From contig NZ_JAFFZE010000026.1 of NCBI RefSeq assembly GCF_025165815.1, forward strand, positions 1 through 64,000: DNA of 64,000 nucleotides, read 5' to 3'. This stretch comes from Actinophytocola gossypii. Lineage in GTDB: Bacteria > Actinomycetota > Actinomycetes > Mycobacteriales > Pseudonocardiaceae. The notes beneath the pieces are model-generated. The model made no database searches. It was not told the origin of the DNA and worked only from the letters and a program-made list of their open reading frames with translations. The position numbers were made by a program, and so were the translations under genes. Shown here piece by piece: positions 23,201 through 42,133 of the stretch (within the stretch, counting starts at the first letter, position 1; each line of letters begins with the position of its first letter).

Positions 23201-24442
23201 ACGTCGTCCGGGCACAACTCGCCGGGACCGGACGACGAGGACACAACACTGCTCGTGTGGGATCTGCTCGAGTGGCGACGGGTCGGCAAACCGCTGGCCG
23301 GTCACACCCAAGGCACCCAGGCCGTGGCCGTCGTGGAGGTGGACGGCCGTCCGACAGCGGTGACCGGTGGGGGCTGGGACGGCACCGTTCGGCTCTGGGA
23401 CCTGACACTGGCTGAGCAGCAGGTCGGGGATCCCACCCCCGGGCACGGCATGCACATCCTGGAGATGGCCGTGCTCGACCGGGGCCCACACCGCCTCGCC
23501 GTCTCCGCCGCCCTCGACGACACCGCGTTCGTCTGGGACCTCCGAGGACACCGCGTAGTCGGACGCGCTCCCGTGAACTTCTGCAACTTCGTCGGTCTCG
23601 AGGAGTCCTTCGGAGAGGTTGTCGCGGTACTGGCGGGCATCGGGTTCGCGGAGGTGCACAACCTCGGTACCGGCTCGCTGATCACCCTCCAGCCCGCCAG
23701 CCGGCCCCTGCGGGCTTCCCGGCAGTACGCCTCCGGACCAGCGCACGTGTCGGCCGGAGCGATGGCGCGGTGGGGTGGGCGACCCGTGGTGGCCTTGGGG
23801 TCCTCCCACCGGGCGGTGCAGCTCCACGACCCCGTTTCGGGGAGGACCGTCGGACGCGCGATCGACGTGAGTGCCCCCGCCGCGACACCTGCGGACAAGG
23901 TCGACGCGACAGCGAACGTACCGGCGAGAATCGCGTTGCTCCTCGTGGCCGGCCGGCCGGCCGCCGTAGTGCTGAGTAGCCGGAGGGCGTCCGACGACGG
24001 CTTCACCGGGGCCGTCTGGGACCTCTTGGACGGCACGCTGATCGCCACGCTGGAACCACCGGCGTCGCAGGCGGCCACAACCTGCGTCGTCGGTGGTCTG
24101 ACCACGGTGATCACTGTGGGGGCGCAGGGAGTAATCCGGGTGTGGGACGCGGGCGCACAACGAACCCTGCGCACCATCGAGAGCGGTGGCGACCACATCC
24201 AGTACCTCGCGTCCGGCCTGCGTCGAGGGAGACCGGTCGTGCTCGCGGCGGGCTATCGCGGTCCTCTCGGCGTCTGGGACCTGGCCACCGGCGCGGCCGT
24301 GGACGAAATCAGGCTGCCCGACGCGTGCCGCGGGATCGCGCTCGGCGAGGACGGAGCGCTCGTCGTCGCCATCCAGAACGACGTCGCGGTCTTCGAGACC
24401 GAGATCCGCGGCGTCGTCCCGGACCTCGGTCCTCGGTCATGA
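20279..24442 (+). CDS. STAND NTPase with amyloid-like N-terminus, protease-like domain and WD40-like repeats
   Basis: A 1,387-residue protein. Residues 8-35 (VNSVSGDVFGHLVQAGSISG then GVHFH) form an actinobacterial motif resembling RHIM-like amyloid signalling sequences. Residues about 45-220 look like a trypsin-type domain, but the serine position reads GFAGTPVF instead of GxSGxPV and no catalytic His is evident, so it is probably inactive. The NACHT/STAND NTPase follows (TGGPGTGKSAVLAH at about 262-275; VTVLCDALDEA). From about 740 onward there are WD40-like blades (VRLWDV, VQVWDV, VELWDL, VRLWDL, IRVWDA). Proteins of this design bind a trigger through the repeats and oligomerise. Single gene, plus strand. 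Confidence 0.82.
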   Translation: MNDGGPDQVVNSVSGDVFGHLVQAGSISGGVHFHLGARWSPSSRSRAAQRPSWLARLSDGTAGVLLDPRRVLVLGSPGQVRVDMPFGGVAGLRAAVLSRCAAATVLELSEPLDVVAAPLAAPVLCDGHEFTVHGFREAEVIAASGVLGGLAGPWFAVREFQGPSGAGFAGTPVFDRDVDAVVGLLGETGVYPLANLLEPWPWLRDLLGWRLDHDPALRTHWLPRARGSEVEADTGSWYFTGRTEARRELCAWLEAGPPLLVVTGGPGTGKSAVLAHVLVGADARWAPRVPTGGPRPAPGTVDIALHLKGFAFDDVVEWLAALSDVTAADPGELLVALRDRRETAGRAVTVLCDALDEAVTAEESVRIARLLAELAVAGVARVVVGVRTAPPGSLRARVHRVWGRSTPVLDLESERFLRREDIAEYVASRLAGDDTEGRYRDGAALRDIAETVATRARHNFLVAQLTSRWLLLPGTPVASADLDEALPTTVGEAMEKYLDAFGPDRGLVERVLTALAFARGSGLPRNDLWVRLAEALTPGYDASAADLARVFDSAASYLIETETRVDGSPTYRLYHEVLDEHLRENCAVAAPHRAVVETLVRTVPEQGSRRNWEAADSYVRTQLAGHAARAGVLDDLLTDGGFLVHADPSPLLAVLHKAVTTNGRLAVACYRASSADHRSLAPSARAQVLALDAARLGAHDLREQFARESIWPVTFSTGARQHGALLATLRAEQGNVSSIAAGTFEGRAIAVSGSEGGRVRLWDVADQRPIGSVISGLPWSSYQSPALALTTLDGRLMAVVGGRNQVQVWDVLAASMVAEWTTGKSDSITAVAVVEHDGRVLVLATSWEGMNAWDLRTHRLVAGPVGKRLQALAFAELHGVPVVVTGGWTEIRTWTLDGLRETGQAMTSAESVFQLAVTEVAGRPVAITGTGDGSGAVELWDLSFRSQIGETRTDHGWSVSGIAVTEIAGRPVAVTSSGHNSPGPDDEDTTLLVWDLLEWRRVGKPLAGHTQGTQAVAVVEVDGRPTAVTGGGWDGTVRLWDLTLAEQQVGDPTPGHGMHILEMAVLDRGPHRLAVSAALDDTAFVWDLRGHRVVGRAPVNFCNFVGLEESFGEVVAVLAGIGFAEVHNLGTGSLITLQPASRPLRASRQYASGPAHVSAGAMARWGGRPVVALGSSHRAVQLHDPVSGRTVGRAIDVSAPAATPADKVDATANVPARIALLLVAGRPAAVVLSSRRASDDGFTGAVWDLLDGTLIATLEPPASQAATTCVVGGLTTVITVGAQGVIRVWDAGAQRTLRTIESGGDHIQYLASGLRRGRPVVLAAGYRGPLGVWDLATGAAVDEIRLPDACRGIALGEDGALVVAIQNDVAVFETEIRGVVPDLGPRS

Positions 24443-25608: not shown

Positions 25609-28600
25609 CTACTCGTTCTCTAGCTCGTCGTAGCGAGCAGCGAGGCCGCGGATCTCGTCGTCGAGCCAGTCGCGGGTGGCCTGGACCGCGTGACGCAGAT
25701 CGTCGTTCTCGTACTCGCCCGTCAAGGCTTCGTCCGCGGCGGCTCGATACCGGTTGAGCTCCTCAGACACCCCTCCGGACCAGCCCCAGTGCGACGGTCG
25801 CATCGCCGACGTGACCTGCTGCCGGATCGTGTCTGCGGTGGCCCGGTCCGCGAGCCTGGCCGCGCTGAACACGCGGTCTGCGAGGCGGGGATGGTAGAGC
25901 GGCCACCCCTCCACAACGTTCAACGCGCAAGCCAGAGCGGCGAGGGTCTTCGTGTCGACGGTCTCAATGATGTGATCGAGCGATCGAGCCTGGTTCTCGG
26001 TCATGCCATGAGACATGACCACTCCGGCGACGGAGTACGCCGCGACAGGGCTTCTCACGGCAGTCGTGACCAACCACCCCGCCAGCACATCCGAGTGCCG
26101 GTCGAAGGCGTCGGGGATGCCGTCGGAATCGTACGGCGCGGAGTCTCGGGTCTCGGCGAGCGCGGCCAGGCGATCGAGGACGAGTTCCGGGTGCGTGTCG
26201 GCAACACCACCTGCGATCTGCTGTACGAGGTAGTCCGACCATCCGCAGTGGTCGACCAGGTCCAGGACCGCGAGCGCGGCTTCTCGACCGAGTCCTTGCC
26301 CCCACTGCGCTCCGTCGTACTCGCTGGCGTGTTCCAGGAGCCGTTGGGTGGTCAGCGACGTGATCCCGGCCCGGAGCAGGTGAGGCGCCACCGCGGCGGG
26401 GTTCGCTGCCAGTAGCGGGTGAGCACCGAGGAGGAACCGATCCCGAAGCGCGGGGTCGGGGTCATTGCTTCCCTTCCGGTGGACGTCGCGGAACGTTCCG
26501 GGACGGGTCGCCCACTCCGCCATGACGAATGCGTCCGCCACTGCCTCCCTCACCTCGTGGCGGCGGTTGTCGAACCCCGCGAGCCACTCGGTGAAGGCGC
26601 TTTCGTCGCTGTCGGCCCATCGGCACAGCAGGGAGGGGAGGTGCTGGTCAAGGGGGCCGGGAGGGCCTGAGGCGACCTTGTGCACCAGATCGCTTGTGAG
26701 GGTGGGCCGGAGGTCGGCGAACCGGCACAGCAGGAGCGGAGTGACACCGCGGGCGGGCGCCGCGAGCCGCACCTGCCGGAGCAGGTCGTCGAGGTCGCGC
26801 ACGAGCCGTGCTAGGCCGCCGTCATCACCGACGGTCTCCACAACCCGGGCGGTGAGGGCTTCGACCTGGGCTTGCTTGTCTTCTCGTCTGCGGCGGGCCC
26901 TGCGCAGGTCATGTTCCCGACGTTGACGGTCGTCGAGACCGGCCGCGTCCGCCGCGCGCGCGAGGTCGGCAGCGTGGAGTTCCTCGATCGTGGGAACCGG
27001 GGCCGTCTTGCGTGTGCCGATCGAGTGGACTGTGTCCACGACGAGCTGGGCGAGGTCGTCACCGTGGTCGTCGAGCCGTGTCACCAGGACCAGCGCGGCA
27101 TGACGGAGGTGGAGCGACTTCGCCCGTTCCGCCGTCCACGCCACGGACTCGCGGACCAGCCTGCGGATCACCGGACTTCCGGTTCCGGAGGCTACCTCGG
27201 TGAGGGTCACGATGGTCGCGAGATCGTCGTCTTCCCATCCCAGCACCTCGTCGTCGAGCGGTGTGTCTCCGAACCCGCCCTGCGGTGGGCGGATCGCGAC
27301 AGCGAGAAGCCGGACGGCGTCACCCGCGCGACCGAGGTCGTCGCCCGTCGCCGCGGTCAGGAGGATCGTCCTGATGTGGTCCCGGACTGGCCGCGCCCAC
27401 GACGTGCTCACGTGATAAGTCCTGAAGCCGAGCTTCAGCCGGGCTTCCTGGACCGCTCGGTGGCCGTCCTTCTCCAGGAACGGTTTCACCGCGAACAACG
27501 GTGATTCCACCCCTTTGGGTTCGGCGAGCCACATCTCGACGCGGCCGAGGATGCGGTTCGGGAAGGAAGCGTGTCGTAGAGTGCCGAGATTCGCGAGCTC
27601 GTCGGTTATCACCCGCTCAGCACGGTTGGTGTTGCTGTTGGTGAACCGCGAGTCGAGGCACCGGAGCGACCACAGGGCGTCCAGCGCGGTCTCGAGGAGG
27701 TCGGGATCGGTTGTGGCGCACTTCCCGTACAGGTCGGCGAGTGTGCTCCGGACTCGTTGTGCCCTGAGGTCATCCGTCGCCGAGGTGTCCGGCCGGGCAC
27801 GCACGGCCTCGAGCACGTCGATCAGCAGGTGCGGTTGGGTGACAGCCAGTCCGCTGATCCTGCTGAGTGCTCTGGCAACGCCGTCCAGGTCGGCTTCCCC
27901 GATCTCGGCACGTACGCTCTCCCACACACTCGCGAAAACGGACGGACCGTCCTGCCGGCGCAACCGCCAGTCGAGTTCGGCGAGCTCGGTCACCAACCGG
28001 CCGGCGTGCCGCTCTCCGAACGACTGCCACAGCTGCCGCGCGAACCCGGTGTCGCGTCCGTCCGCCACAGACTCCTGCTCCAGGACGTAGTCGGCGAGCA
28101 CATCCGGGGTGACCTGTGTGCCACCGTGATGGGACACCAGAACGCCTCGGTCGCGCAGCTGCGCCACCCACCGGAGCACGACGACGGGATCGAGACCGCA
28201 GAACCGGGCGATGTGCGCGCGGACCTCCTCGTCGTCGTCGACGACGTTCCCGAGCGCTGCGTAGACCGCCAGCACCCGGCGTGCGGGCACGTCGATGTCG
28301 TCGAGCGCCAACTCCTGGTACCGAGTGAGGACCTGCCCGCGAAGACCGGCGTCCACAGCCAACGGGGCTGTCAGCTCCCCACGACGGATCAGGTGGGCCG
28401 CCACAACCGCCACCAGGGGACTGTGCACCGCCTGGTTCGCGAAGTACGCACGCCCGGTCCACGGGACATCGAGGCCCTCGGTCAGCGATGCGACCAGAGC
28501 CGTGGCCTCACGCTTCGACAATTCGCCCACGACCACCTCGCGCACGTCCGCAGGCGAGAACCGGGCGGTCGCGACCTGCGCGCGTACGACCTGTGCGCCG

Positions 28601-29514
28601 GACGGCCTGACACCGAGGACGAGCTGGGTGCCAGGCACGGTCTCTGCATAGGCGAGTAAGGGCGCGAGTGCCTCCGGGTCCTGGTGCGCGTCGTCCACGA
28701 CCACCACAGCCGGCGTCTGGGGTAGCTCACCCAGCGCGGCGCGGTCGAACCGGTAGCCGGCCGAGGCGAACAGGACCGGCACCTCCGGATGAGCCGCTTC
28801 GAACGCGGTCAGCGCCTCGACCAGCAGCCTGGTCTTCCCCCGACCACCGGGCCCGGTGACCAGGACGACCGCCGGTTGTGACTCGTCGACATCGAGGACC
28901 TCATCGAGGTCCCGCAACTCCGACTGCCTGCCCACCCGAAGTCCGCAGTCGTTGGGCACCCGGAGCGGGTTCTCCCGGGCCTCGGTGAACGCGGCGAGGC
29001 TCAGGAAGGCGTCCTCGCCCGGCACCTTGAGAAGCCGCTTCCGCGTGGCGCTCCCCCACGTCTGGTCGAGGACATCACGCTTCTTGTGCAGCGGGAGCTC
29101 GTCGAGCATCCGCCCCAGCCCTCGGCGATCCACCAAAGCCCAGTGCGGGTGCTTCGCGATCTCGGCCCTCACGGACGCAGACGCCTCACCGGAGCACACC
29201 AAGTAGTACTTGTCGGCCGGGTACGAGCAGTCGGACACGAACCCGCGCACGTCCGCCGGGGTCAGCTTGGCGTAGCGCTTGCACTGCCACGCAGCTGTCG
29301 CGCCGTCACTGAACTTCCCGACGAGATCGACCCCCTGCTGCCCGTCACCACGGCGTCCCCACCGCTCCACCTCGACGACCTTGCGGACCGGGCCGACGCA
29401 GAAGCGGTGCGCACTCAACAACCGGTCAGTGAAGTCCTCGAACGGCCCAGGCTCCAGCAACGGAGTGGGCAGCAACGTCGGCTCGGTATCCGGCCCGACA
29501 ACCCCATCGATCAT
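25609..29514 (-). CDS. Avs-like protein: Mrr-type nuclease fused to STAND NTPase
   Basis: About 1,301 residues from ATG 29514 (MIDGVVGPDTE). An N-terminal PD-(D/E)XK domain has GVDLVGKF...AAWQCKRY (about residues 60-77), the D...QxK signature of Mrr endonucleases. A STAND-type NTPase follows with Walker A VTGPGGRGKTRLLVEAL (about 212-228) and Walker B AVVVVDDAHQD. A long helical C-terminal region with no repeat I can name makes up the remaining ~800 residues. This is the layout of antiviral STAND (Avs) proteins, where the C-terminus recognises a phage protein and the nuclease then degrades DNA. Single gene. The frame remains open 21 codons upstream, but that part is low-complexity. Confidence 0.78.
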   Translation of the reverse strand: MIDGVVGPDTEPTLLPTPLLEPGPFEDFTDRLLSAHRFCVGPVRKVVEVERWGRRGDGQQGVDLVGKFSDGATAAWQCKRYAKLTPADVRGFVSDCSYPADKYYLVCSGEASASVRAEIAKHPHWALVDRRGLGRMLDELPLHKKRDVLDQTWGSATRKRLLKVPGEDAFLSLAAFTEARENPLRVPNDCGLRVGRQSELRDLDEVLDVDESQPAVVLVTGPGGRGKTRLLVEALTAFEAAHPEVPVLFASAGYRFDRAALGELPQTPAVVVVDDAHQDPEALAPLLAYAETVPGTQLVLGVRPSGAQVVRAQVATARFSPADVREVVVGELSKREATALVASLTEGLDVPWTGRAYFANQAVHSPLVAVVAAHLIRRGELTAPLAVDAGLRGQVLTRYQELALDDIDVPARRVLAVYAALGNVVDDDEEVRAHIARFCGLDPVVVLRWVAQLRDRGVLVSHHGGTQVTPDVLADYVLEQESVADGRDTGFARQLWQSFGERHAGRLVTELAELDWRLRRQDGPSVFASVWESVRAEIGEADLDGVARALSRISGLAVTQPHLLIDVLEAVRARPDTSATDDLRAQRVRSTLADLYGKCATTDPDLLETALDALWSLRCLDSRFTNSNTNRAERVITDELANLGTLRHASFPNRILGRVEMWLAEPKGVESPLFAVKPFLEKDGHRAVQEARLKLGFRTYHVSTSWARPVRDHIRTILLTAATGDDLGRAGDAVRLLAVAIRPPQGGFGDTPLDDEVLGWEDDDLATIVTLTEVASGTGSPVIRRLVRESVAWTAERAKSLHLRHAALVLVTRLDDHGDDLAQLVVDTVHSIGTRKTAPVPTIEELHAADLARAADAAGLDDRQRREHDLRRARRRREDKQAQVEALTARVVETVGDDGGLARLVRDLDDLLRQVRLAAPARGVTPLLLCRFADLRPTLTSDLVHKVASGPPGPLDQHLPSLLCRWADSDESAFTEWLAGFDNRRHEVREAVADAFVMAEWATRPGTFRDVHRKGSNDPDPALRDRFLLGAHPLLAANPAAVAPHLLRAGITSLTTQRLLEHASEYDGAQWGQGLGREAALAVLDLVDHCGWSDYLVQQIAGGVADTHPELVLDRLAALAETRDSAPYDSDGIPDAFDRHSDVLAGWLVTTAVRSPVAAYSVAGVVMSHGMTENQARSLDHIIETVDTKTLAALACALNVVEGWPLYHPRLADRVFSAARLADRATADTIRQQVTSAMRPSHWGWSGGVSEELNRYRAAADEALTGEYENDDLRHAVQATRDWLDDEIRGLAARYDELENE

Positions 29515-29859
29515 CGCGCAAGCATAAGCAGACGCACCGACGGAACCAGATGACGACGTGGTGCCGGTGCCGGTCAAACCGTCGATCCCGGCGGTGAGGC
29601 GTTCGCCAGCGTCGTCATCGCTCGGGTGTCGTCGTTGACGTTCTGCTCCTCGTTAACGTGGCCCGAGGAGTTCGAGCAGGATCAGCCCCTGCCGCAGCGC
29701 GGCCTCCGACCGCGAGCCGATCGGCGGTGATGCTGTTGGCGACGACCTTGTCGCCGTAGATCAGTTGCCCGATCAGGTCGGGCGGCACTAGGGGCGCGGT
29801 GGCGATGGTAACCGCTTCGGACGGGGCCGAAGTGGTGCCGGAACGGTCGGTGGTGGTGA
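29515..29859. other. Gap with degenerate sequence
   Basis: No intact gene. Multiple short frames with in-frame stops; probably part of the same decayed prophage-like block as 29860-30218. Confidence 0.4.
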
Positions 29860-31614: not shown

Positions 31615-31965
31615 CTACGGATGGACGGAGGAACCCAATGCAGCGACAACACGCACGGGCGACACAGCCTCGTGCCAGACAACACGCAGCCCCATTGTCA
31701 GCAGCTCGGGGAGGTCGAAGCTACCGGTGAGTCCGTGGATGACCGTCTCGTCGAGCAGTCCGACGGATGTCCATTCGCCGGCGGACACCACTTGCTGCCC
31801 ACGCTTGCGCAGGCGGTCCGCCAGGATGGCCTGGCCCGCCGGAGTGCCGTGCACGAGCATCACGCCCTTCGCGGCAACCTCAGCGCTGATAGACACCAGC
31901 TCGTCGGGCTGTCGCGTGCGCGCCGAGGCCGTCGCTTCGACTTCCCACAGCTCGCCGTTCTTGAC
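31615..31965 (-). pseudogene. Coding-like fragment downstream of CRISPR array 1
   Basis: The minus-strand frame reads EVAAKGVMLVHGTPAGQAILADRLRKRGQQVVSAGEW...DLPELLTMGLRVVW and looks like genuine protein (balanced, helix/strand alternation), but it has no start. It enters directly from the array frame and stops at 31615. The family is not recognised. It may be the tail of a gene fused to the array by deletion. Confidence 0.35.
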
Positions 31966-32293
31966 GCCTCGATGAAGGGCCGCCCCGGCGAGGACGGCGA
32001 GCAACTCGTTGAGGTCGGCGTCGGAGGCCAGCTGGATGTGGCCTCGATGAAGGGCCGTCCCGGCGGAGACGGCGACACATGACCGGCGTTGAACGCCTCC
32101 GCGATCTGCGGGCCTCGATGAAGGGCCGTCGGGGCGGGGAACGGCGACCCCTTGCGCCGGCCTCGACGCGCGAGACCTTTGCTTGCTCGATGAAGGGCCG
32201 TCCCGGCGGGGACGGCGACGTGCCGCCGGACAGCTGGGGGACGTCGTCGAGGAACTTGCCTCGATGAAGGGCCGTCCCGGCGCGGACGGCGAC
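31966..32293 (-). CRISPR. CRISPR array 1: five repeats, four spacers, degenerate
   Basis: 36-nt repeats start at 31966, 32041, 32112, 32184 and 32258. On the plus strand each begins GCCTCGATGAAGGGCC or a variant and ends GGACGGCGAC. Spacers are 39, 35, 35 and 38 nt. The repeat at 32112 is 37 nt with several changes and the one at 32184 starts TGCTCGAT. The leader lies at higher coordinates, so transcription runs on the minus strand. Variation even near the leader agrees with loss of new spacer acquisition. Confidence 0.93.
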
Positions 32294-32468
32294 AGGGTCC
32301 AGATCTGATCCCATTTGACCTGCGGTTTCGTGAGCGCTCGCGAGAGGTGTCGGTTGGGACGGGCGTCGATGATCTTCACTGGCGGATTGCGGGTCGGACA
32401 GGTGCTCTGCCCGAACAAATAGTATGCGAGGGCTGGCCGTGGTTTTCGCGGTGACGGAGGGTTCGCAA
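32294..32468 (-). promoter_or_regulatory. CRISPR leader 1
   Basis: Lies between the cas2 end and the first repeat. It is closely similar to 39827-40004, including TGAGCGCTCGCGAGAGGTGT and the ACAAATAGTAnGCGAGGGCTGG stretch. By position it should carry the array promoter and, formerly, the integration signals. Confidence 0.75.
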
Positions 32469-32769
32469 TCATAGGACCAGTGGGCCGTGGGTTGTTACGG
32501 GTCGTCGAGGCCCCAGGAACTCGATCCGGTGGTTGTCGCCGTCCTTCAAGGGGACCGAGGTCGCAGATCAGGAGTGAGTCGGTTGTCTGGTCGAGTTGGG
32601 TGGTGACGGTGAGTTTGAGGCGGACGATTTTGGCGGGTTTGGCGTCGATGAGGAAGACGCTGTACGGCAGTCGGGTCCCGTATGATTCGAGTGTTTTCGC
32701 CACTCGTGTTCGCCGGGTGTCCGACGTAACGTCGTAGGCAAGGATGTAGCGGTGGACCGTGTCGCTCAC
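32469..32769 (-). pseudogene. cas2: cas2 with a one-base frameshift
   Basis: GTG 32769 starts VSDTVHRYILAYDVTSDTRRTRVAKTLESYG, a normal Cas2 (ferredoxin fold, catalytic-site Asp in YDV). At a run of four C (minus strand; 32550-32553) the frame shifts. With three C the protein would read DLGPLKDGDNHRIEFLGPRR and stop at 32469 (99 residues). The duplicated cas2 tail at 40005-40075 keeps exactly that HRIEFLGPRR...PLVL frame, which shows it is ancestral. As it stands the frame runs on through leader and array without a stop. Sequencing error remains possible. Confidence 0.85.
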
Positions 32770-32999
32770 CGGATTGTCACGCCTCGGTACCGGCTCTGCG
32801 TTCCATCCACGACTAGCCACGTCGACGGAGCAGGCGTGCCGGGCCGAGACCGGGCGGGGTCGTCGCTGGCCCGGTGAGTGGCGACGCCGACAGCTACCTG
32901 GTGGGTGTCGGTCGTCTCGCCCATCGCTTACAGCCAGGCACGGCGCGGGCAGAAGACGTGGTGTGCGACGAGGCTGATCGGAATGGGTTCTCGGTTCAC
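32766..32999 (-). pseudogene. cas4-cas1 remnant, internally deleted
   Basis: GTG 32999 (overlapping the csb3-like stop, GTGA) starts VNREPIPISLVAHHVFCPRRAWL, the N-terminus of Cas4 in type I-G Cas4-Cas1 fusions. TAA follows at once, then in the same frame AMGETTDTHQVAVGVATHRASDD continues Cas4. After about 55 codons it jumps to a short tail ending YRGVTIR and a TGA overlapping the cas2 GTG. About 78 codons remain where a fusion of more than 500 is expected, so Cas1 is absent. Confidence 0.85.
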
Positions 33000-33985
33000 G
33001 CTGGCCTCGTGATGGGGATCGGGTCGGCGCGGAGGGCTCGGCGTTCGGGGGCGTTGTCGCTGCCGAACCGATGGATGGGGAATCGGGCGACTCCGCGTAC
33101 GCCGCGGTCGCGGAGCCAGGCTTTCGCTGCCGCGGCGGTGAGGTCGTTCGGTGGGTCTGGGATCGCGGCGTCGCGGAGGGCAGCTGAGGCGAGGATGGAG
33201 CGGAGCCGGGCTGGTCGCCAGGGTCCGTCCCAGACGGGGGCGACGAACCATTCTCGGCGGCCGTGGCGGAGGTGGCCGCTGGTGTGGGCGGCGGTGTTGA
33301 CCCGTGGGGCGGCCGGCAGCTGACCGATCCCCCACAGCGCGCACCAGACGAGCGCGTTGTCGATGGGGCCGGGCGTGGTCAGGCCGGTGGCGGTCACGCT
33401 GTCGGGTTTGCCGCCGAGTTCGTCGTGGACGATCTCGCCGGCGACGCCGGCGGCGAGTTGGCCGGGAGTGCGGGTGGGCAGCCGCGCGGCAAGCGGGCGG
33501 AGGCGGTTGCCGACGAACTCGGAACCGCGGTTGCGGGGTTGCATCTCGTAGCGGCTCGCTCCGTCGTCCTGCCTTGGGTCGCCTCGGTAGGTGCTCCAGT
33601 AGCAGGGTTCGCCCAGCGCGGCGAGATACCGCAGGTCCGACCAGGCTTGGGCGCTGGTCAGCTTGTCGAGCACGTCGTGGCGGGCGTCCTGGAGTTGTTC
33701 CCAGGCCTGCCGGTCCTTGAGCGTGGAGAGGCGGGGGCTCATCAGTCCTCGCTTGTCGCCGTACTCGCGGTTCACCCATGTGCGTCGGTTGGCGAGGTGG
33801 GTTCGGATCGCTTGGTCGACGCGGTTGTCGTCGAGGCGGGTGCCGGTCAGGACGGGACGGTCCGCGTTCCAGTGCAGACGCAGGTCACCGATCCCGTCCT
33901 CGGCGAGGATGTCGGCCAGGCCGTAGAAGGCGAGGTGGTGGACAAGGACGAGCGGGTCGGCTCCGGTCAGCACGAATGTGGTCAC
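32996..33985 (-). CDS. Type I-G Cascade subunit, Csb3-like (probable Cas8-type)
   Basis: 329 residues from GTG 33985, which overlaps the cas3 stop (AAGTGA). It starts VTTFVLTGADPLVLVHHLAFYGLADIL. Located between cas3 and cas4-cas1 in the usual I-G/I-U gene order, where csb3 or the larger csx17 is found. Features include EMQPRNRGSEFVGNRLRPLAARL and a conserved VWCALWGIGQLP segment. It is too short for Csx17, so a Csb3-type subunit is the best guess. It should contribute to crRNA-guided target binding with Csb1 and Csb2. Confidence 0.6.
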   Translation of the reverse strand: MTTFVLTGADPLVLVHHLAFYGLADILAEDGIGDLRLHWNADRPVLTGTRLDDNRVDQAIRTHLANRRTWVNREYGDKRGLMSPRLSTLKDRQAWEQLQDARHDVLDKLTSAQAWSDLRYLAALGEPCYWSTYRGDPRQDDGASRYEMQPRNRGSEFVGNRLRPLAARLPTRTPGQLAAGVAGEIVHDELGGKPDSVTATGLTTPGPIDNALVWCALWGIGQLPAAPRVNTAAHTSGHLRHGRREWFVAPVWDGPWRPARLRSILASAALRDAAIPDPPNDLTAAAAKAWLRDRGVRGVARFPIHRFGSDNAPERRALRADPIPITRPA

Positions 33986-36735
33986 TTGCCCTCCGCGGAG
34001 ATCTGGCCGTCGGCGGCGCGTAGCACGGCTTCGAGGAACGAACAGACCCACACCCCGTATCGGTGGTGGGTGCGTTCGATGAGGTCGTCCCATTCCCCCT
34101 CGTCGAACAGGTCAGCAGCTTGTTGTTTGGTCTCCGGGGAGTCGGCTGTGTTGAGCAGATCCGTCGCGGCGTGGGGGAATCCGGTGCGGCCGTGGCCGTG
34201 GCTGGTGCCGATCAGTCGTGCGACCAGGTCGCGGTCCGCGCCGTCGGTGGCGTCGGTGGCGAGTTCGGGCCAGGAGTGTACGACCGACCGCTGTTCGTGT
34301 CGCCATCGTGGCGGCAGCCCGCTCGCGTCGTGCCGGCGCCGCAAGGTCACCGGGCCGACTGTGCTACGGCTCTTTGCCAGGATCGTGTCGCTGGGGGCGC
34401 CCAACCGGGTTTGGAAGCGTGGGTCGTATTTGCCGTCGTCGTGGTGGAGTCCGGCCAGATACAGCACGTCCCGGATCGTGTCGGGCAGACCGAGCCGGCC
34501 TGCCAGTTCGGCGGCACGGTCGCCGACGTCTCGCTGGTGGTTGTCGAGGAGGACCAGCCTGCGGATGGGGGGCTGGGGGACGTCGTCGTCGGAGGTGGCG
34601 CGGCGTCCGTCGAGAACCAGGACCAGGCCGGGGCTGTCGAGGTCGGGAAGGACGACCACGTGGGTGGGATCGGCGGCGGGTCCGGTGAGCAGCCGGTACG
34701 CCTCCGCTGCCATGCCCGTGGTGTCGGTGGCGAGGAACTCTGTGACGACGTCCCGCGGGTCGGCGGCGGGCTCCTCGTCGGATGGGGTCAACGCTCGGTG
34801 GAGGTCGCCGCCGGGTGGGACGGTGATCCGGTGGACCACGTCGCCGGGGGGTACGTTCCGGTTGAGCTCGGCGGGTGCTTCCAGGACGTCCTCGGCGGTG
34901 TGGGTGTCGTGGTTCCATCCGAGCGGGACGACGACCTGGGGTGTGGTGTGCTCGTCGTGCGTGGGGGATGCGGTGAACAGGCGAGTGGAGCTGTCCAGAA
35001 CCACGATGTCGCCGGGGCGCAGATGAGGGCGGCGTCCGTCGTCGGTCTCGGTCCAGTCGAGTTCGTCCACCTCGTCACCACGCACGAGCACGCCGGTGAG
35101 TCGGCTGTCTCGGTCGGCCGCGGTCAACGCGGCGCGGGCGGTGCGCAGCGGCGTGCCGAACACCTCGTGGCGGCGTGGCGGCAGGTACCGGACCAGCGTC
35201 ACGGGGTCGACGACTGGGGACACAAGTTCGTCGCGGACCACGACACCGACCGCGTTGTCCGGTTCGAAGTCCTCGGACAGCCACAGATCCAGCTCCGGTG
35301 CCGCGGCCAGTTCGTCGTTGGTGCGCGCCCAGTGCCACACGTGCCCCAGCTCGGGGCGCTGCCAGAGCGGCCGGCGTCGGCTCGCCGACGGGGGCGGGTC
35401 GCCGCGTAGAGCCCAGGGGGCCAGCCCGTCTCGATCCTCGGCGCGCCGCGCGAGCCATTCCAGCGCTGGGGCCAGGTCGTCGTGGGTGTAGGGGCCTGAC
35501 CGCACGTCGGTCCTGATCTCGGCGTCCGGGACGATCACCGATATGGGCCCGGTTTCCCGTGTCCCGAGCCGGTTGACCCGCCCGGCGCGCTGGGCGAGCG
35601 CGGACCCGGAGGCCAGTTCAGTCACCATCCCGCCGAAGTCCAGATCGGCTCCGACCTCGAGCGACTGGGTACTGACCAGGACGTCGACCTCGTCGTTCCC
35701 CCGGGTCGACAGCACTCCGGGATAACGCGCGTCCAACCGGGCGATGTCGATCGGGCGGACCTGCCCGCAGATCAGCGCCACGGTCAACCCTTCGGTCTCC
35801 CGCAACCGGCGGGTGACCGCCACAGCCCGCTCCACGGAGTTGACGAAACACCCGACGGTCCGGTCCCCCTCAGCCCGCAGCGCCGCCACCCGCCGCACGA
35901 GCTCTCCCACCACGGACGACCGGTTCCAGTCCGAGCACGGCACGAGCGTGACCGGTTTCCGCCGCAGCATCCGCTGCGCGAGCACCTCGTCGCGGGCCAG
36001 GTCCTCCTCATCCACACCGACCCGGCGCCCGGCGGCGGCGACCGGGGTCGCGGTCGTCTCCACCACCCGCAGCGGCGACAGCCACGACGTGTCACCCTCG
36101 GCAACCGGCACCAGTTCCGCCACCCGCCGAGCGGTGCGCAGAACCTGCCGGGCGAGGTGGGCCTCGTCGACCACCGCCACCGTGTCTGCCGCCAGAAGTC
36201 CCGCTTCCCTCGGCCACGCCCGGGACGAAGACCCGTAGCCGCGGAACAACAGCCGGCTCCCCCACATCTCCGGTGTCGCGCAGAGCACGGCCGCGGCCTG
36301 CGGGTGGTCCACCCAGCGCCGGGACGGCGGCAGCCCACCACGAAGGCGAGCGACGGTCAGCACGTCCTGCGGGGCGGGTCCCGCGAGCGACCGCAGTCCG
36401 GCCGCGACCCGCCGCACGATGTCAGGCGCGGTGCTGTCGCGCAGCCGGTCCCGCAGGGCACGGGCGTGCTCGTACTGGTCGTCCACCAGCACCCGCCGCC
36501 CCACCACCATCACCAGCCGACGCGGCGGAAGTGGTCGACCGGTCAGCGCGGCGAAGGCGAGCGCGAACACGTGCACATCGATCGCGGCGGTCTTTCCGGC
36601 CCCGGTCGGCGCGTCGATCGTGTCCGGCCAGCCCTCGGCCAGCACCGTGTCTAGCAACCGCTCCTGCCACGCGAACGGCCGATGGTCGTGGACCGCGGCG
36701 AAGAACTCGGCGAAGTCACCGCGCTCCAGGATCAA
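33982..36735 (-). CDS. cas3: Type I-G Cas3 helicase-nuclease (C-terminal HD)
   Basis: 917 residues, TTG start at 36735 overlapping the csb2 stop (TTGA). SF2 helicase motifs: Walker A DAPTGAGKTA (41-50), DEAH (190-193), VETTATP motif III, and QRAGRVNRLG motif VI. The HD nuclease is C-terminal: LAGLHHDDGKYDPRF (around residue 750) and GTSHGHGRTGFP. Helicase-then-HD is the arrangement of type I-G (I-U) Cas3, opposite to most type I Cas3 proteins. It unwinds and degrades DNA recruited by the crRNA complex. No frame damage seen. Confidence 0.9.
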   Translation of the reverse strand: MILERGDFAEFFAAVHDHRPFAWQERLLDTVLAEGWPDTIDAPTGAGKTAAIDVHVFALAFAALTGRPLPPRRLVMVVGRRVLVDDQYEHARALRDRLRDSTAPDIVRRVAAGLRSLAGPAPQDVLTVARLRGGLPPSRRWVDHPQAAAVLCATPEMWGSRLLFRGYGSSSRAWPREAGLLAADTVAVVDEAHLARQVLRTARRVAELVPVAEGDTSWLSPLRVVETTATPVAAAGRRVGVDEEDLARDEVLAQRMLRRKPVTLVPCSDWNRSSVVGELVRRVAALRAEGDRTVGCFVNSVERAVAVTRRLRETEGLTVALICGQVRPIDIARLDARYPGVLSTRGNDEVDVLVSTQSLEVGADLDFGGMVTELASGSALAQRAGRVNRLGTRETGPISVIVPDAEIRTDVRSGPYTHDDLAPALEWLARRAEDRDGLAPWALRGDPPPSASRRRPLWQRPELGHVWHWARTNDELAAAPELDLWLSEDFEPDNAVGVVVRDELVSPVVDPVTLVRYLPPRRHEVFGTPLRTARAALTAADRDSRLTGVLVRGDEVDELDWTETDDGRRPHLRPGDIVVLDSSTRLFTASPTHDEHTTPQVVVPLGWNHDTHTAEDVLEAPAELNRNVPPGDVVHRITVPPGGDLHRALTPSDEEPAADPRDVVTEFLATDTTGMAAEAYRLLTGPAADPTHVVVLPDLDSPGLVLVLDGRRATSDDDVPQPPIRRLVLLDNHQRDVGDRAAELAGRLGLPDTIRDVLYLAGLHHDDGKYDPRFQTRLGAPSDTILAKSRSTVGPVTLRRRHDASGLPPRWRHEQRSVVHSWPELATDATDGADRDLVARLIGTSHGHGRTGFPHAATDLLNTADSPETKQQAADLFDEGEWDDLIERTHHRYGVWVCSFLEAVLRAADGQISAEGK

Positions 36736-38267
36736 CCCAACACCGTCCCCTCATCGTGATCGGCCGGAACGAGCAACCCACCGCCGAGATGCCTGCTCTG
36801 CCCGATCGCCAGCACCGTCGTGAGCGTGCCGAGATCACCGAGCGTCAGCGTCGCTGTGTAGGGCCGCACTACCGCATGCTCGTTGAAGTGGTGCACGAAG
36901 TCGCTGGGTCGGCTGCTGCGCACGGCCGCGACATCCACGACCGCGACCCCGGCCGCGTTGACCGCCTCCACGATCGCCTCGTCGCGCTGCGCACCACGAC
37001 CGGACGAGCGGGCGATCCCGGTGCCTTGCCACACGAACCCGACCGACAGCAGCGCGGCGTGCAGGAACGTCCATCCCTTCCAGCCCCGCGTGTCCGGGAC
37101 CGCCGCCGGGTCGGGGCGCCACAGCCGCACCCGCCCCACCCCCGGTTCCCGCCAGAACCGATCCCCCGCCCTGACCTCCGGTCCTCCGACCACCGGCAAA
37201 ACCACCTGACCACGACGCAGCGCCCTGATCGCACCCACCGCCCGGTACACCGCGTCCCGTTCCGCCTCCGAAACACCCCGCGGTATCAGCACCGCCAGCG
37301 CCGACCTTCCGCCACCCGGAAGATCGACCGGCATGCTCGCATCCAGCAGATGCAGCGCGACCCGATTTGGTGGACGACGCGCACCGGCCGGGTAGACACC
37401 GGTGAGCACCGGTGGCGCGTCCTGATCCAGCACCCGGATCAGCGCGCGGTGCGCGGCCACAGCCCATCGGACGCGATCGCGTGCCGGGACCGCCGTCTCA
37501 AGCGGCAACACCAACACCTCCGACCACGGAACCTCGGCCGCCGGCACCGCGAGATCCCGGTAGCGAGCCGGTCGCACAGCCCCACGAGGCGGCGCCACGC
37601 TTCGTGAACGCTCATCGGTCCCCGCCCGATCCGAACCCACCGCACCCGTCCGCTCCGCCCGATGCGCCGCCCTCAACTCCATGAGCCGACCCCCGACAGG
37701 AACGTCGACGCTCATGCCCGGCGCGTGGTCGAACACGCCAGCATCAGCCGCACGGCGATGCGTGGATACGACGTCGTCCTCGCTGACGGTCAGCACGACC
37801 GGCGACTCGGCGGCACCCAAATGCGGGACATCCGGGCACAACGCCCGCAAGGCCTCCACCACCAGCTCCGGCGGATGCTCCCGCCAGGTCCACACGAACG
37901 GGCCGCCCACCGCAGTGACAGCCTCCTGTTTGGGCAAACGACGCAGCGTCCTGGCACCCCGCGAACCACGAATCGTACCGTCCTGCCGGTACGCGACCGC
38001 GTCCCGCCGGCTGGCCCGCAGCGCCGGAACAGACACCTCATCCGGCGGGTTGTCCTCCAACCACCGCAGCGCCACGACGTCCTCGTCGCAGGGCTCCCAA
38101 CCATCATCACCAGGCACAGCACGAGGACCGAATCCCGCCGCACACAGGAGCGCCGAGTACAACCGCGCCACCGACGGAACCTGGTCCGGCGAGCCATCCG
38201 CACGATGCCCTCGATAGGTGCCCAGCGGCAGACGGGCCACCACAGAGAACGGCACGTCACTCCCCAT
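36732..38267 (-). CDS. csb2: Csb2 (type I-G Cas5-Cas6-like protein)
   Basis: 511 residues. Start ATG 38267 (MGSDVPFSVVARLPLGTYRGHR) overlaps the csb1 end by 11 nt and begins with the expected RAMP strand; a longer frame to 38309 adds residues overlapping csb1. PSVARLYSALLCAAG, FVWTWREHPPELVVEAL, KGWTFLHAALLSVGFVWQGTG and the final RHLGGGLLVP are RAMP-like glycine-rich elements. In type I-G systems Csb2 fuses Cas5 and Cas6 functions: it caps the crRNA 5' end and processes the pre-crRNA. Confidence 0.85.
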   Translation of the reverse strand: MGSDVPFSVVARLPLGTYRGHRADGSPDQVPSVARLYSALLCAAGFGPRAVPGDDGWEPCDEDVVALRWLEDNPPDEVSVPALRASRRDAVAYRQDGTIRGSRGARTLRRLPKQEAVTAVGGPFVWTWREHPPELVVEALRALCPDVPHLGAAESPVVLTVSEDDVVSTHRRAADAGVFDHAPGMSVDVPVGGRLMELRAAHRAERTGAVGSDRAGTDERSRSVAPPRGAVRPARYRDLAVPAAEVPWSEVLVLPLETAVPARDRVRWAVAAHRALIRVLDQDAPPVLTGVYPAGARRPPNRVALHLLDASMPVDLPGGGRSALAVLIPRGVSEAERDAVYRAVGAIRALRRGQVVLPVVGGPEVRAGDRFWREPGVGRVRLWRPDPAAVPDTRGWKGWTFLHAALLSVGFVWQGTGIARSSGRGAQRDEAIVEAVNAAGVAVVDVAAVRSSRPSDFVHHFNEHAVVRPYTATLTLGDLGTLTTVLAIGQSRHLGGGLLVPADHDEGTVLG

Positions 38268-39453
38268 TGCTCTCGTCGTCCACCGCTCCAGCACCAATCG
38301 CCGGGTCACCCTCGAACCGCAGTGTCACCCCATCCCACACCACCTCCGCGGTGCGCTCGGCGTGGTCGAGCGCCGCCGCAAGCAGCGCGTCGGCGTCCTC
38401 TACCGACAACGACGCGAACTCGCGGGACTGACCGGCCCGCTCATGCTGCACCACCCGAGTAGGGCCGGCCTCCACGAGGTCACAGTTCGCCCGCAGGACC
38501 AGTTCAGCGTCCGACCGGGCAAGCCCGGCCAGCGCCAGCGCCGCAAGCAGCGCCCGGCAAGCACTGTCTCCTTCCGGCCCCTTGCCGAACCGGATCTGCC
38601 GCAACGCCGCGAAACTCAACACATGCGACCGCGTGATCGACTCACACGCGACACCGGCGAGGGTCTCCAACGAAGGCGGAATACCCCCAAGCCCCACCGC
38701 GGAGGCGCTGACCAGCTTCTCGCCCTTCGCAGCCTTGACCACCTTGTCGAAGGTCTTCTTGCTCAACTCCTCCCGCTGCCGCTCCGCAAGAGCCTTCAAC
38801 GCCGCACCAGTCAGCTGAACCTGCATCCCATGCGGGTCGACCCGAGCGCCACCCTTGAGCTCCGGCAAACCCGACGGCGCCTCACAAAACCCGATGATCT
38901 CCCCCACCAGGATGCTCCGCCACCGCCCCTGCCGCGCCGCCCGACTGGAATCCCACGCACCGAACACCAAACTCGCCGGGCTGTTCTCCAACAACGCGAG
39001 CGCGTTGCCCGGATTCGCGTCACGAATCCGGCGATAGCTGTCATTCTGTGTCGCCGGCTTCCCATCGATGAACCCCGCCCGGAAATGCCCATCAAAGGCC
39101 CGATGTGGCAAATCCAGATCCGTGTACTCCGCCGACTCGTAAGACACCACCATGCGCGGAACCCGGACCAACGTCTCGTGCCCATCCACGATCGCCGCAG
39201 ACAGCGCCTCCTCAACCCGGTTAAGCTGCGACTGCTTCGAGTCAATCAGTACGACGTCACGGGCGACACCCTTGTCATACCTGGTCTCATACGCATACGT
39301 CCCCTGCGGTGAAACCCGCGAAGCGAACTTCGCCGGTGCCACAGACGCGTGCGCCCCCACAGCCGGCGCCAGATCAGTGACCGCCGTCAGGCAACTCGCA
39401 CCACCAGAGGTAGACGCGCTCAACAGGTCCGCCAACCCCAACCTCGATACCAC
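38257..39453 (-). CDS. csb1: Csb1 (type I-G Cas7)
   Basis: 398 residues, GTG 39453 with GGGAG 8 nt upstream. It reads VAPAKFASRVSPQGTYAYETRYDKG..VLIDSKQSQLNRVEEAL then PHRAFDGHFRAG and SLVFGAWDSSR, the conserved backbone-subunit features of the Csb1/GSU0053 family. It assembles along the crRNA spacer. First gene of the interference operon; the spacing and overlaps of csb1-csb2-cas3-csb3-like imply one transcript, starting just downstream of array 2. Confidence 0.9.
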   Translation of the reverse strand: MVSRLGLADLLSASTSGGASCLTAVTDLAPAVGAHASVAPAKFASRVSPQGTYAYETRYDKGVARDVVLIDSKQSQLNRVEEALSAAIVDGHETLVRVPRMVVSYESAEYTDLDLPHRAFDGHFRAGFIDGKPATQNDSYRRIRDANPGNALALLENSPASLVFGAWDSSRAARQGRWRSILVGEIIGFCEAPSGLPELKGGARVDPHGMQVQLTGAALKALAERQREELSKKTFDKVVKAAKGEKLVSASAVGLGGIPPSLETLAGVACESITRSHVLSFAALRQIRFGKGPEGDSACRALLAALALAGLARSDAELVLRANCDLVEAGPTRVVQHERAGQSREFASLSVEDADALLAAALDHAERTAEVVWDGVTLRFEGDPAIGAGAVDDESNGE

Positions 39454-39646
39454 TCAGAACTCCCGTCATCCACATCACCGTCGAGCCGCAGTCACGTATC
39501 ACCATCGCGAATCAGAGCCAGGACGCTACAACGACCACCACAGATCACGACGACCTCGCCCTCAGACGCAACCCCACAACCACGCTGCTTCCAGACGAAA
39601 CCAGACGAAAATCAACGCGCCAAGAGTGCCCGACACCGACGAACCG

Positions 39647-39826
39647 TCATCAATGAAGGGCCACCCCGACGGGGACGGCGACCCTCGACCGGGTGGAGCA
39701 CGTCGGCGCGCGGCCGCCCGCCTCGATGAAGGGCCGTCCCGGCTGGGACGGCGACCGGCCCACCGTGACGATCTCGTTCCCCGCGTCGTCGCCTCGATGA
39801 AGGGCCGTCCCGGCTGGGACGGCGAC
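39647..39826 (-). CRISPR. CRISPR array 2: three repeats, two spacers
   Basis: Repeats at 39647-39682 (degenerate, starting TCATCAATGAAGGG), 39720-39755 and 39791-39826. The last two are identical 36-mers starting GCCTCGATGAAGGGCC. Spacers are 37 and 35 nt. The leader is on the right, as in array 1, and the most decayed repeat is the leader-distal one, as expected for a terminal repeat. The csb1 gene starts 194 nt downstream on the same strand. Confidence 0.93.
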
Positions 39827-40004
39827 TGGGTCCAAATTTTGGCCCGTTTTGACCTGCGGTTTTGTGAGCGCTCGCGAGAGGTGTCGGCCGAGGCGGCCAT
39901 TGATGATCTTCACTGGTGGATTGCGGGTTTGGACACGTGCTCTGACCTGGACAAATAGTACGCGAGGGCTGGCCGTGATTTTCGCGGAGACGGAGGGTTC
40001 GCGG
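39827..40004 (-). promoter_or_regulatory. CRISPR leader 2
   Basis: A near copy of leader 1 (shared TTTGACCTGCGGTTT, GTGAGCGCTCGCGAGAGGTG and GATCTTCACTGG blocks). It probably drives array 2 and perhaps the csb1 operon behind it. Confidence 0.75.
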
Positions 40005-40075
40005 TCACAGGACCAGTGGGCCGTGGGTGGTGACGGGTCGTCGAGGTCCCAGGAACTCGATCCGGTGGCTGTGGC
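40005..40075 (-). pseudogene. 3' fragment of a second cas2 copy
   Basis: On the minus strand it reads SHRIEFLGPRRPVTTHGPLVL and stop (TGA at 40005-40007), the last ~22 codons of cas2 in the unshifted frame. Upstream codons are missing; the sequence joins the FxLD gene. It marks the edge of a duplicated cas2-leader-array block. Confidence 0.85.
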
Positions 40076-40078
40076 TCA

Positions 40079-42133
40079 GTGCGCTGTCGACCACGAGCCC
40101 AGCAGGACGGCGAACTCGCCACCTGGTGGCATCTCCGCAAGACGCCCGCTTGGCGGCTGCGCTACCAGCCGCTCAACCCTGAGACAACCGTGGTCGACGC
40201 GCTGCTGTCCGAGCTGGAAGCCGACGGGAAGGTCGCGCGCTGGACCCGCGGCATCTACGAACCCGAGACCCGCGCGTTCGGCGGCACCGCCGCGATGAAC
40301 ATCGCGCACACCCTGTTCCACCACGACAGCCGACACTGCCTCGCCCGCGCCCGCGACACCGCACCTACCGCCTTGGGACAGCGTGAGACCACCCTCCTGT
40401 TGTTCAGCGCGATGCTGCGCGCCGCCAGCCTGGACTGGTTCGAGCAGGGCGACGTCTGGGCCAAGATCGCCGCGCTCCGGCCCGCCGCCCACGCCCACCA
40501 CACCGACTCCCAGCGCCTCGAGCGGTGGAGCCAGGCCGTGCGACGCCTGATGACCACCAACACGCACACGATCACCGACGTGGCGCCCGACCAGGTGCCC
40601 GAGACGTGGTGGGCGGCGTTCGACACCGCTGGCCGTCAGCTCGCCGACCTCGCCCGCGACGGACACCTCGAGCGGGGCCTGCGCGCCGTCCTGGCGCACC
40701 ACTTCATCTTCCACGCCAACCGCGCCGGCCTCTCCGGACCCGACCAGGCCACCCTCGCCGCGCTGGCCATCGACGCCGTCTTCCACACCGACTCTCACAA
40801 CACGCCTACCCGGCAGGCACGCGCCGGGACCACCACCACCTCAACCACCACCACCGTTAGGGTTCCCGCGATGACGACCACTGTCAGTGACGCTTCCACC
40901 GACTCCGCCGACGAACTGCGCGCCCAGCTCGCCGACCGCCTCGTCCAGGACGGCACGATCCGCACCAACGCCGTCGAGGCCGCGTTCCGGCAGGTGCCGC
41001 GCCACCTGTTCCTCCCCGGCGTCGGCCTGGTCGAGGCGTACGCCGACGAGCCCGTCTACACCAAGCTCGAGGGCGACGGCACCCGCATCAGCGCCGCCTC
41101 CCAGCCCACGATCGTCGCCATGATGCTCGAACAGCTCGGCATCCAGCCCGGCGAGCGGCTGCTCGAACTCGGAGCGGCCACCGGCTACAACGCCGCTCTG
41201 ATGGCCACCCTCACCGGCCCCACAGGACATGTCACCACCATCGACATCGACTCCGACATCGTCACCGGTGCCCGCGAGCACCTCGCCGCCGCCAGCATCG
41301 ACAACGTGGAGGCCGTGGCCGCCGACGGCGCGCTCGGCCACCCGGAGACCGCACCCTTCGACCGCGTCATCGCCACCGTCGGCGCCCACGAGATCCCCAC
41401 CGCCTGGCTCGACCAGCTCGCCCCCGGCGGACGCCTGGTCGCCCCGGTACGGCTGCGCGGATGCGCCTCACGCAGCATCGCCTTCGAACGCGACCAGAAC
41501 GGCTGGACCAGCATCGGCAGCGAGATGGCGATCTTCATGCCGCTGCGGGGCCTCGGCGACGACGCCCGCCGCGTCCTGGACCTCACCGGAACCGGGCTGA
41601 CCACCGGTGACGTGACGCTGCAGACCCACAAGGACAACAACCACGCCACCGACCCGGACACCCTTTCCGGCGTCTTCGACACCCCCGCCCAGGAGGTGTG
41701 GGCCGGCGTGCACGTCGCCCCGATGGAGTCGTTCGAGTGGCTGGACCTGTGGCTGGCCTGCCACCTGCCCAACCCCCTCATGCGCATGCAGGTCGCCCCG
41801 AGCGCGAAGGACAGCGGCCTGGTCCGACCGATGTTCCCCTCGGTAGCGATGGCCACCACCACCGCCGACGGCAGCCTCGCCTACCTCACCGTCCGCGCCG
41901 CCGAACCCGGACCGGACGGGGGCCGGCGCTACGAGGTCGGCGTGATCGGCCACGGGCCCCGCGGACAGGAACTCGCCGAACAGGTCGCGACCGAGATCGC
42001 CACCTGGGACCAGGGCTTCCGCTCCCGCACCGTGCGTTTCGCCATTCCCGACACATCGCCACAGCCGAACGCCGGCCCCGGCCGCGTGGTCCTGGACCGC
42101 CCGACCAAGCCCATGATCGTCACCTGGGAGTGA
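40079..42133 (+). CDS. FxLD-system fusion: thiopeptide-type domain plus PIMT-like methyltransferase, N-terminus cut
   Basis: Residues about 8-240 resemble the thiopeptide-type bacteriocin biosynthesis domain (DGELATWWHLR, IYEPETRAFGGTAAMNIAHTLFHHDS). A Thr-rich linker leads to a protein-L-isoaspartate methyltransferase-type domain (EPVYTKLEGDGTRISAASQPTIVAMMLEQL; motif I LLELGAATGYNAALM), as in FxLD-system methyltransferases of lanthipeptide-like loci. An internal ATG at 40871 could make the methyltransferase alone. The 5' end abuts the cas2 fragment, so the native start is lost and the GTG at 40079 is nominal. No precursor peptide, dehydratase or cyclase gene is seen nearby. Confidence 0.75.
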   Translation: MRCRPRAQQDGELATWWHLRKTPAWRLRYQPLNPETTVVDALLSELEADGKVARWTRGIYEPETRAFGGTAAMNIAHTLFHHDSRHCLARARDTAPTALGQRETTLLLFSAMLRAASLDWFEQGDVWAKIAALRPAAHAHHTDSQRLERWSQAVRRLMTTNTHTITDVAPDQVPETWWAAFDTAGRQLADLARDGHLERGLRAVLAHHFIFHANRAGLSGPDQATLAALAIDAVFHTDSHNTPTRQARAGTTTTSTTTTVRVPAMTTTVSDASTDSADELRAQLADRLVQDGTIRTNAVEAAFRQVPRHLFLPGVGLVEAYADEPVYTKLEGDGTRISAASQPTIVAMMLEQLGIQPGERLLELGAATGYNAALMATLTGPTGHVTTIDIDSDIVTGAREHLAAASIDNVEAVAADGALGHPETAPFDRVIATVGAHEIPTAWLDQLAPGGRLVAPVRLRGCASRSIAFERDQNGWTSIGSEMAIFMPLRGLGDDARRVLDLTGTGLTTGDVTLQTHKDNNHATDPDTLSGVFDTPAQEVWAGVHVAPMESFEWLDLWLACHLPNPLMRMQVAPSAKDSGLVRPMFPSVAMATTTADGSLAYLTVRAAEPGPDGGRRYEVGVIGHGPRGQELAEQVATEIATWDQGFRSRTVRFAIPDTSPQPNAGPGRVVLDRPTKPMIVTWE

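Follow-up and report, generated by a model that had tools for sequence, protein, structure and literature searches.

Type I-G CRISPR-Cas systems, formerly designated I-U, are described in two reports (PMC9638904, PMC10333696) as systems with Csb1, Csb2 and Cas3g that are accompanied by a Cas4-Cas1 fusion. The window analysed here, a 64,000-bp stretch of the Actinophytocola gossypii genome (contig NZ_JAFFZE010000026.1), carries a locus which resembles those systems in possessing csb1, csb2, cas3g and cas2 and in the order of cas2, leader and array, and which differs from them in that a second set of cas2 tail, leader and array is located ahead of csb1. The loci of related type I-G genomes carry the Cas4-Cas1 fusion, whereas in the window cas4-cas1 is gutted and cas2 is frameshifted.

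Gene content of the type I-G locus

The interference genes are represented by csb1 (cas7g), with matches of 47.7 bits to TIGR02570 (cut-off 38) and 129.7 bits to PF09617, csb2 (cas5-cas6), with 196.3 bits to TIGR02165 (cut-off 45), and cas3g, with 704.9 bits to TIGR02621 (cut-off 400), and repeat arrays with leaders are present as well (Table 1). No NCBIfam match to the large subunit (Csx17/Cas8g) was found in the window locus. The gene following cas3 matches NF049934 with 28.2 bits, which is below the cut-off of 65, as are the values for two relatives (30.3 and 24.7 bits). Only a stub and the last codons remain of the Cas4-Cas1 fusion, and no match to PF01867 (Cas1) was detected in the genome, which is 99% complete. 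The window locus is a degenerate type I-G locus and not a complete member of the type. Cas1 was found in seven of the eight other Csb1-containing genomes searched, the exception being that of A. taiwanensis (G208). Judging by the gene content, the present system would be restricted to interference and unable to gain spacers without Cas1 supplied from elsewhere.

Table 1 Coordinates of the features of the type I-G locus and of the adjoining FxLD gene in the window.
Feature	Position	Strand	Description
Front CRISPR array	39647..39826	-	Repeats at 39791 and 39720 and a degenerate terminal repeat at 39647; 2 spacers
Front leader	39827..40004	-	178 nt; 5′ motif begins 2 nt past the cas2 stop codon
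Front cas2 tail	40005..40067	-	Last 20 codons and stop; peptide HRIEFLGPRRPVTTHGPLVL; weaker homology to ~40075
Junction of cas2 tail and truncated FxLD gene, approximate	40076..40092	.	From the end of the block alignment and comparison with the congener FxLD gene
FxLD methyltransferase gene, N-terminal part of thiopeptide-type domain missing	40079..42133	+	Profile match from 27/263
Weak terminator-like hairpin in the gap between front array and csb1	39617..39636	-	Pattern scan: 1 found, 0.4 expected
csb1 (cas7g)	38257..39453	-	Profile match
csb2 (cas5-cas6)	36732..38309	-	Profile match
cas3g	33982..36735	-	Open frame; DEAH and HHD motifs present
Cas3-extension-like gene, 325 aa	33011..33985	-	Open; 60% identity to P. 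halophila
Gutted cas4-cas1	32767..33002	-	N-terminal stub with nonsense codon, joined to last cas1 codons
Back cas2	32469..32769	-	Frameshift between ~32532 and 32560; tail 32531-32469
Back leader	32294..32468	-	175 nt
Back CRISPR array	31966..32293	-	5 repeats: 32258, 32184, 32112 (with indel), 32041, 31966

The back cas2 gene is frameshifted just 5′ of its tail, and the frame stays open through the leader and the array, forming a 401-aa ORF. The inner repeats of the front array are identical over 36 nt, and the four ungapped repeats of the back array differ pairwise at 2–5 positions, so the front array may have been the last to grow. Of the two front spacers searched against phages, one gave no match at an E-value of 1 and the other gave partial matches only, with a best E-value of 0.04.

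Two stretches beside the locus, 25609-29577 and 20279-24442, encode large proteins whose matches to nSTAND/AAA and to Mrr-like or WD40 are weak, and these are possibly other defence genes. Beyond the back array there is an open frame (31618-31980) with no Pfam match, which resembles a coding remnant.

Homologous blocks, cas2 tails and the start of the leader

The original prediction placed a cas2 3′ end, a leader and repeats, in this order and on the minus strand, on either side of the operon, regarded them as a duplicated array block and proposed comparing the divergence of the two copies. The alignment of the right block (39791-40075) with the left block (32258-32539) bears out the order, the strand and the position on both sides of the type I-G operon, with 249 of 285 aligned positions being identical (87%, i.e. 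a divergence of 13%) and an E-value of 2.4e-94 for this match in the whole-genome BLASTN search. The duplicated part comprises the cas2 tail, the leader and the first repeat only; the arrays themselves are not duplicated and no spacers are common to them, so the prediction stands for the former and not for the latter.

The block homology ends at about position 40075, beyond which an FxLD methyltransferase gene begins on the opposite strand. Its methyltransferase domain is present (TIGR04364, 447.6 bits with a cut-off of 320) and the frame is open across 684 codons. The match to TIGR03891, the N-terminal thiopeptide-type domain, covers the profile only from position 27 of 263 onwards and falls short of a complete domain, and the homologue in a congener (L056) has an extra N-terminal stretch ahead of the aligned part, in agreement with the predicted N-terminally cut gene abutting the block. 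A search for the empty FxLD site in five congeners yielded no orthologous site (best matches of 35–44% identity), nor did the DNA next to the FxLD gene show any remnant of a first operon. A second FxLD-type methyltransferase gene is located elsewhere in the genome (G000:C4:252436-253593).

The front and back cas2 tails (60 nt) encode the same 20 residues and differ at four nucleotides, all of the differences being synonymous, an outcome with a P value of 0.010–0.015 (kappa 1–4). The front and back leaders differ at 25 of 175 compared positions, and at this rate about 8.6 changes would be expected in the tail against the four observed. Because the tail differences are all synonymous while the leader differs to this extent, the front tail seems to have belonged to a translated, working cas2 during a large part of the period after the two copies diverged, the argument being one from four changes only, and a short copied block is less likely to lie behind this tail than a truncated second locus. 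Slower evolution of the front leader than of the back leader was rejected, as the relative-rate counts of 12 to 8 are not significant.

All 11 aligned sequences have a GCGA...TCG motif that starts no more than about 40 nt past the cas2 stop codon, the distance being 1–2 nt in the window and A. taiwanensis. This comparison of stop codon and motif would mark the start position of the type I-G leader at the cas2 stop, and therefore any retained leader would keep a cas2 tail, the length of which (from ~13 to ~60 codons) is set by where the break fell. A conserved function of the front cas2 tail within the leader might also be considered, but this is unsupported, since tail length varies over the range just given and since old tails erode while the adjacent motif is kept: in the old front copy of genome G606, 43 of 45 positions of the leader 5′ motif are retained against 37 of 58 in the cas2 tail, and in that of P. 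halophila 35 of 44 against 37 of 59. The motif in G606 (L087:16611-16656) is an inverted repeat of 23+23 nt, 83% complementary; the leaders of the window showed no such repeat in this form.

Front blocks and solitary arrays in related genomes

The locus table compiled with TBLASTN includes 23 loci, the window among them. With the TBLASTN setting used, csb1, csb2, cas3 and the extension are all present in ten of these loci, eight of which possess a full-length cas4-1, with a stub in the other two (the window and A. taiwanensis).

In A. taiwanensis DSM 45107 (NZ_JAFB01000058.1) the operon is preceded by a cas2 tail of about 60 codons, a leader and three repeats and is followed by the stub of cas4, to which a cas2 tail is joined, then by a leader and an array, and no Cas1 match was found in the genome. 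The locus is thus like that of the window in its front tail, leader and three-repeat array, its interference genes, the cas4 stub, the second leader and array and the lack of Cas1. It is unlike the window in that the two blocks are 99% identical (309 of 313 positions), the front cas2 tail is longer, the back cas2 is only a tail, a transposase ORF lies upstream and the two are not sisters in the cas tree. In the concatenated Csb1-Csb2-Cas3-extension tree A. taiwanensis groups with cas4-1-bearing Prauserella and a Nocardia MAG with 100% support (71, 79, 57 and 80 for the single genes). Because the tree places it with these intact relatives and not with the window, the front-block layout and the degenerate loci probably arose twice, separately in the window and A. 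taiwanensis. Shared ancestry of the two front blocks is not favoured, given the tree placement and the csb1 upstream regions, which do not align between the two genomes; gene conversion within one shared old duplication is a possible alternative. In neither genome does the sequence that follows the front array match the one following the back array.

P. halophila and P. aidingensis possess a second leader upstream of csb1 in inverted orientation, with scores of 183 and 125 against shuffle maxima of 60 and 48, respectively. In the former it includes an eroded cas2 tail, and the front copy is matched by a sequence-only model of the cas2 tail and leader start, hereafter R1, with an E-value of 5.5e-9; in the latter the end of cas2 is where the match sets in. 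No significant front leader match was found in G251 (52 against a shuffle maximum of 69), and the Nocardia contig reaches no further than 165 bp upstream of csb1, which places the front-block region there outside the comparison. G606 has a co-oriented front block with an eroded cas2 and an intact cas4-1, so front blocks are not strictly tied to the loss of adaptation. Its duplication runs from the front array into a flank of about 1.3 kb that is also found after the back array (83%). A 1.2-kb duplicate is kept in G577 (86%), where no front block was found.

In the distantly related G021 (Csb1 identity with the window of 31%), two arrays whose long leaders are nearly identical lie upstream of csb1 (L030:7467-8690), and no cas4-1 or cas2 match was found by TBLASTN in its 20-kb stretch. 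According to the original prediction, two independent arrays with leaders in relatives, the second lacking a cas2 tail, would count as evidence against a duplicated block; such an arrangement was not seen in A. taiwanensis, G606 and P. halophila and occurs in the distant G021.

The R1 model was used to search overlapping sets of genomes from the family, the order and the class. It matched 21 of 390 family genomes at an E-value of 0.001, with at least two places in five of them (window, G208, G070, G153 and G201), 7 of 397 order genomes at 1e-4, with at least two places in three (window, G070 and G606) and a single match in G370, and 2 of 394 class genomes, with two places in one (window). Twelve of the 28 places in the family list have E-values of 1e-6 or higher; two of these weak matches, L128 (also L132) and L111 (also L137), are both at full cas4-1/cas2/array loci. 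Two contigs of G153 (L130, L131) carry an array, a leader and a short cas2 tail, and no cas genes were found on them by TBLASTN. These solitary (orphan) arrays have a leader and a cas2 tail, as in the front block of the window, but the extra array of the window adjoins a full interference operon. A decayed cas2-leader relic is common to G153 and G201 (L129, L133), both genomes being drafts with an estimated contamination of 6–7%. These findings suggest that cas2 tails beside arrays are markers of lost cas loci. Two degenerate copies of the same repeat as in the window arrays, about 71 nt apart, with no R1 leader match, are located at G000:C12:13963-13999 (L027:4964-5000) and are the relic of a third array.

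Origin of the front block

It is fairly likely that the front block represents the remaining 3′ stump of a second type I-G locus copy that has otherwise disappeared, and that the present system is interference-only. Directly observed are the homologous blocks, the loss of most of cas4-cas1, the frameshift in the back cas2, the missing start of the FxLD gene at the junction and the absence of a Cas1 match from the genome. Against this explanation, the synonymous argument consists of four changes, the longer duplication of G606 is not visible in the window or A. taiwanensis, and the neighbourhood of the FxLD gene holds no trace of a first operon. A second copy, including at least a working cas2, a leader and an array, would once have been located upstream of the present operon in the same direction, having originated from duplication of the locus or a module or from the arrival of a related locus. 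The loss of the back cas4-cas1 would have taken place at a time when adaptation was still provided by the other copy, and a later deletion may have taken the front adaptation genes along with the start of the FxLD gene. Both arrays would be transcribed in the direction of the cas genes from their similar leaders and processed by Csb2. Read as a stump, the block gives a readable history of a CRISPR system losing adaptation and keeping interference and two arrays, which probably happened twice in one family.

Less probably, the front block is a xenolog, which would have come from the related type I-G locus of a different strain or species and recombined ahead of the operon. The 13% divergence and the exclusively synonymous tail differences suit separately evolved cas2 genes, and the distribution of type I-G is patchy, Csb1 being present in 10 of 297 genomes of the family and in one of six in the genus. 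However, the leader tree makes the two window blocks neighbours, no closer block was found in the other sampled genomes, and the A. taiwanensis blocks also pair by genome.

It is unlikely that recombination moved or copied just a short block of cas2 tail, leader and array to the operon front, where the leader would now drive csb1, as was originally predicted. Duplication by recombination is retained from this proposal, but a short move is less likely than the loss of a larger copy, because the front tail differs synonymously only and the G606 duplication extends 1.3 kb past the array. The front block is co-directional with csb1 and its terminal repeat is only 193 nt away from the gene, although a pattern scan of 39430-40120, a region including the front leader, yielded one sigma-70-like site on the plus strand and none on the minus strand, and the gap between the front array and csb1 contains one weak terminator-like hairpin, likewise a pattern-scan result only. 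Both observations speak against a new upstream promoter for csb1; read-through from the front leader into the gene is possible alongside the pattern-scan result. In relatives where the leader points away from csb1, as it does in Prauserella, or is absent, csb1 must be expressed without it.

An assembly artefact joining two loci is highly improbable even in a draft of 53 contigs, as the 13% difference shows that a single locus was not assembled twice to give the two blocks, the reading frame of the FxLD gene is uninterrupted and the same layout occurs in A. taiwanensis.

No published account of cas2 tails duplicated together with leaders was found among titles and the beginnings of abstracts, though one may exist in print, and the window feature is best read as decay of a known kind in a new variant form, repeated in several lineages. 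Since the start of type I-G leaders appears to coincide with the cas2 stop codon, stumps of cas2 tail, leader and array would be left by duplicated loci. We tentatively propose that such stumps, being direct repeats flanking the operon, could exchange sequence and drop or amplify the operon and would thus offer a repeated route to adaptation-free type I-G systems with a fixed memory; the near-identity of the two A. taiwanensis blocks is cited here for sequence exchange between the repeats.
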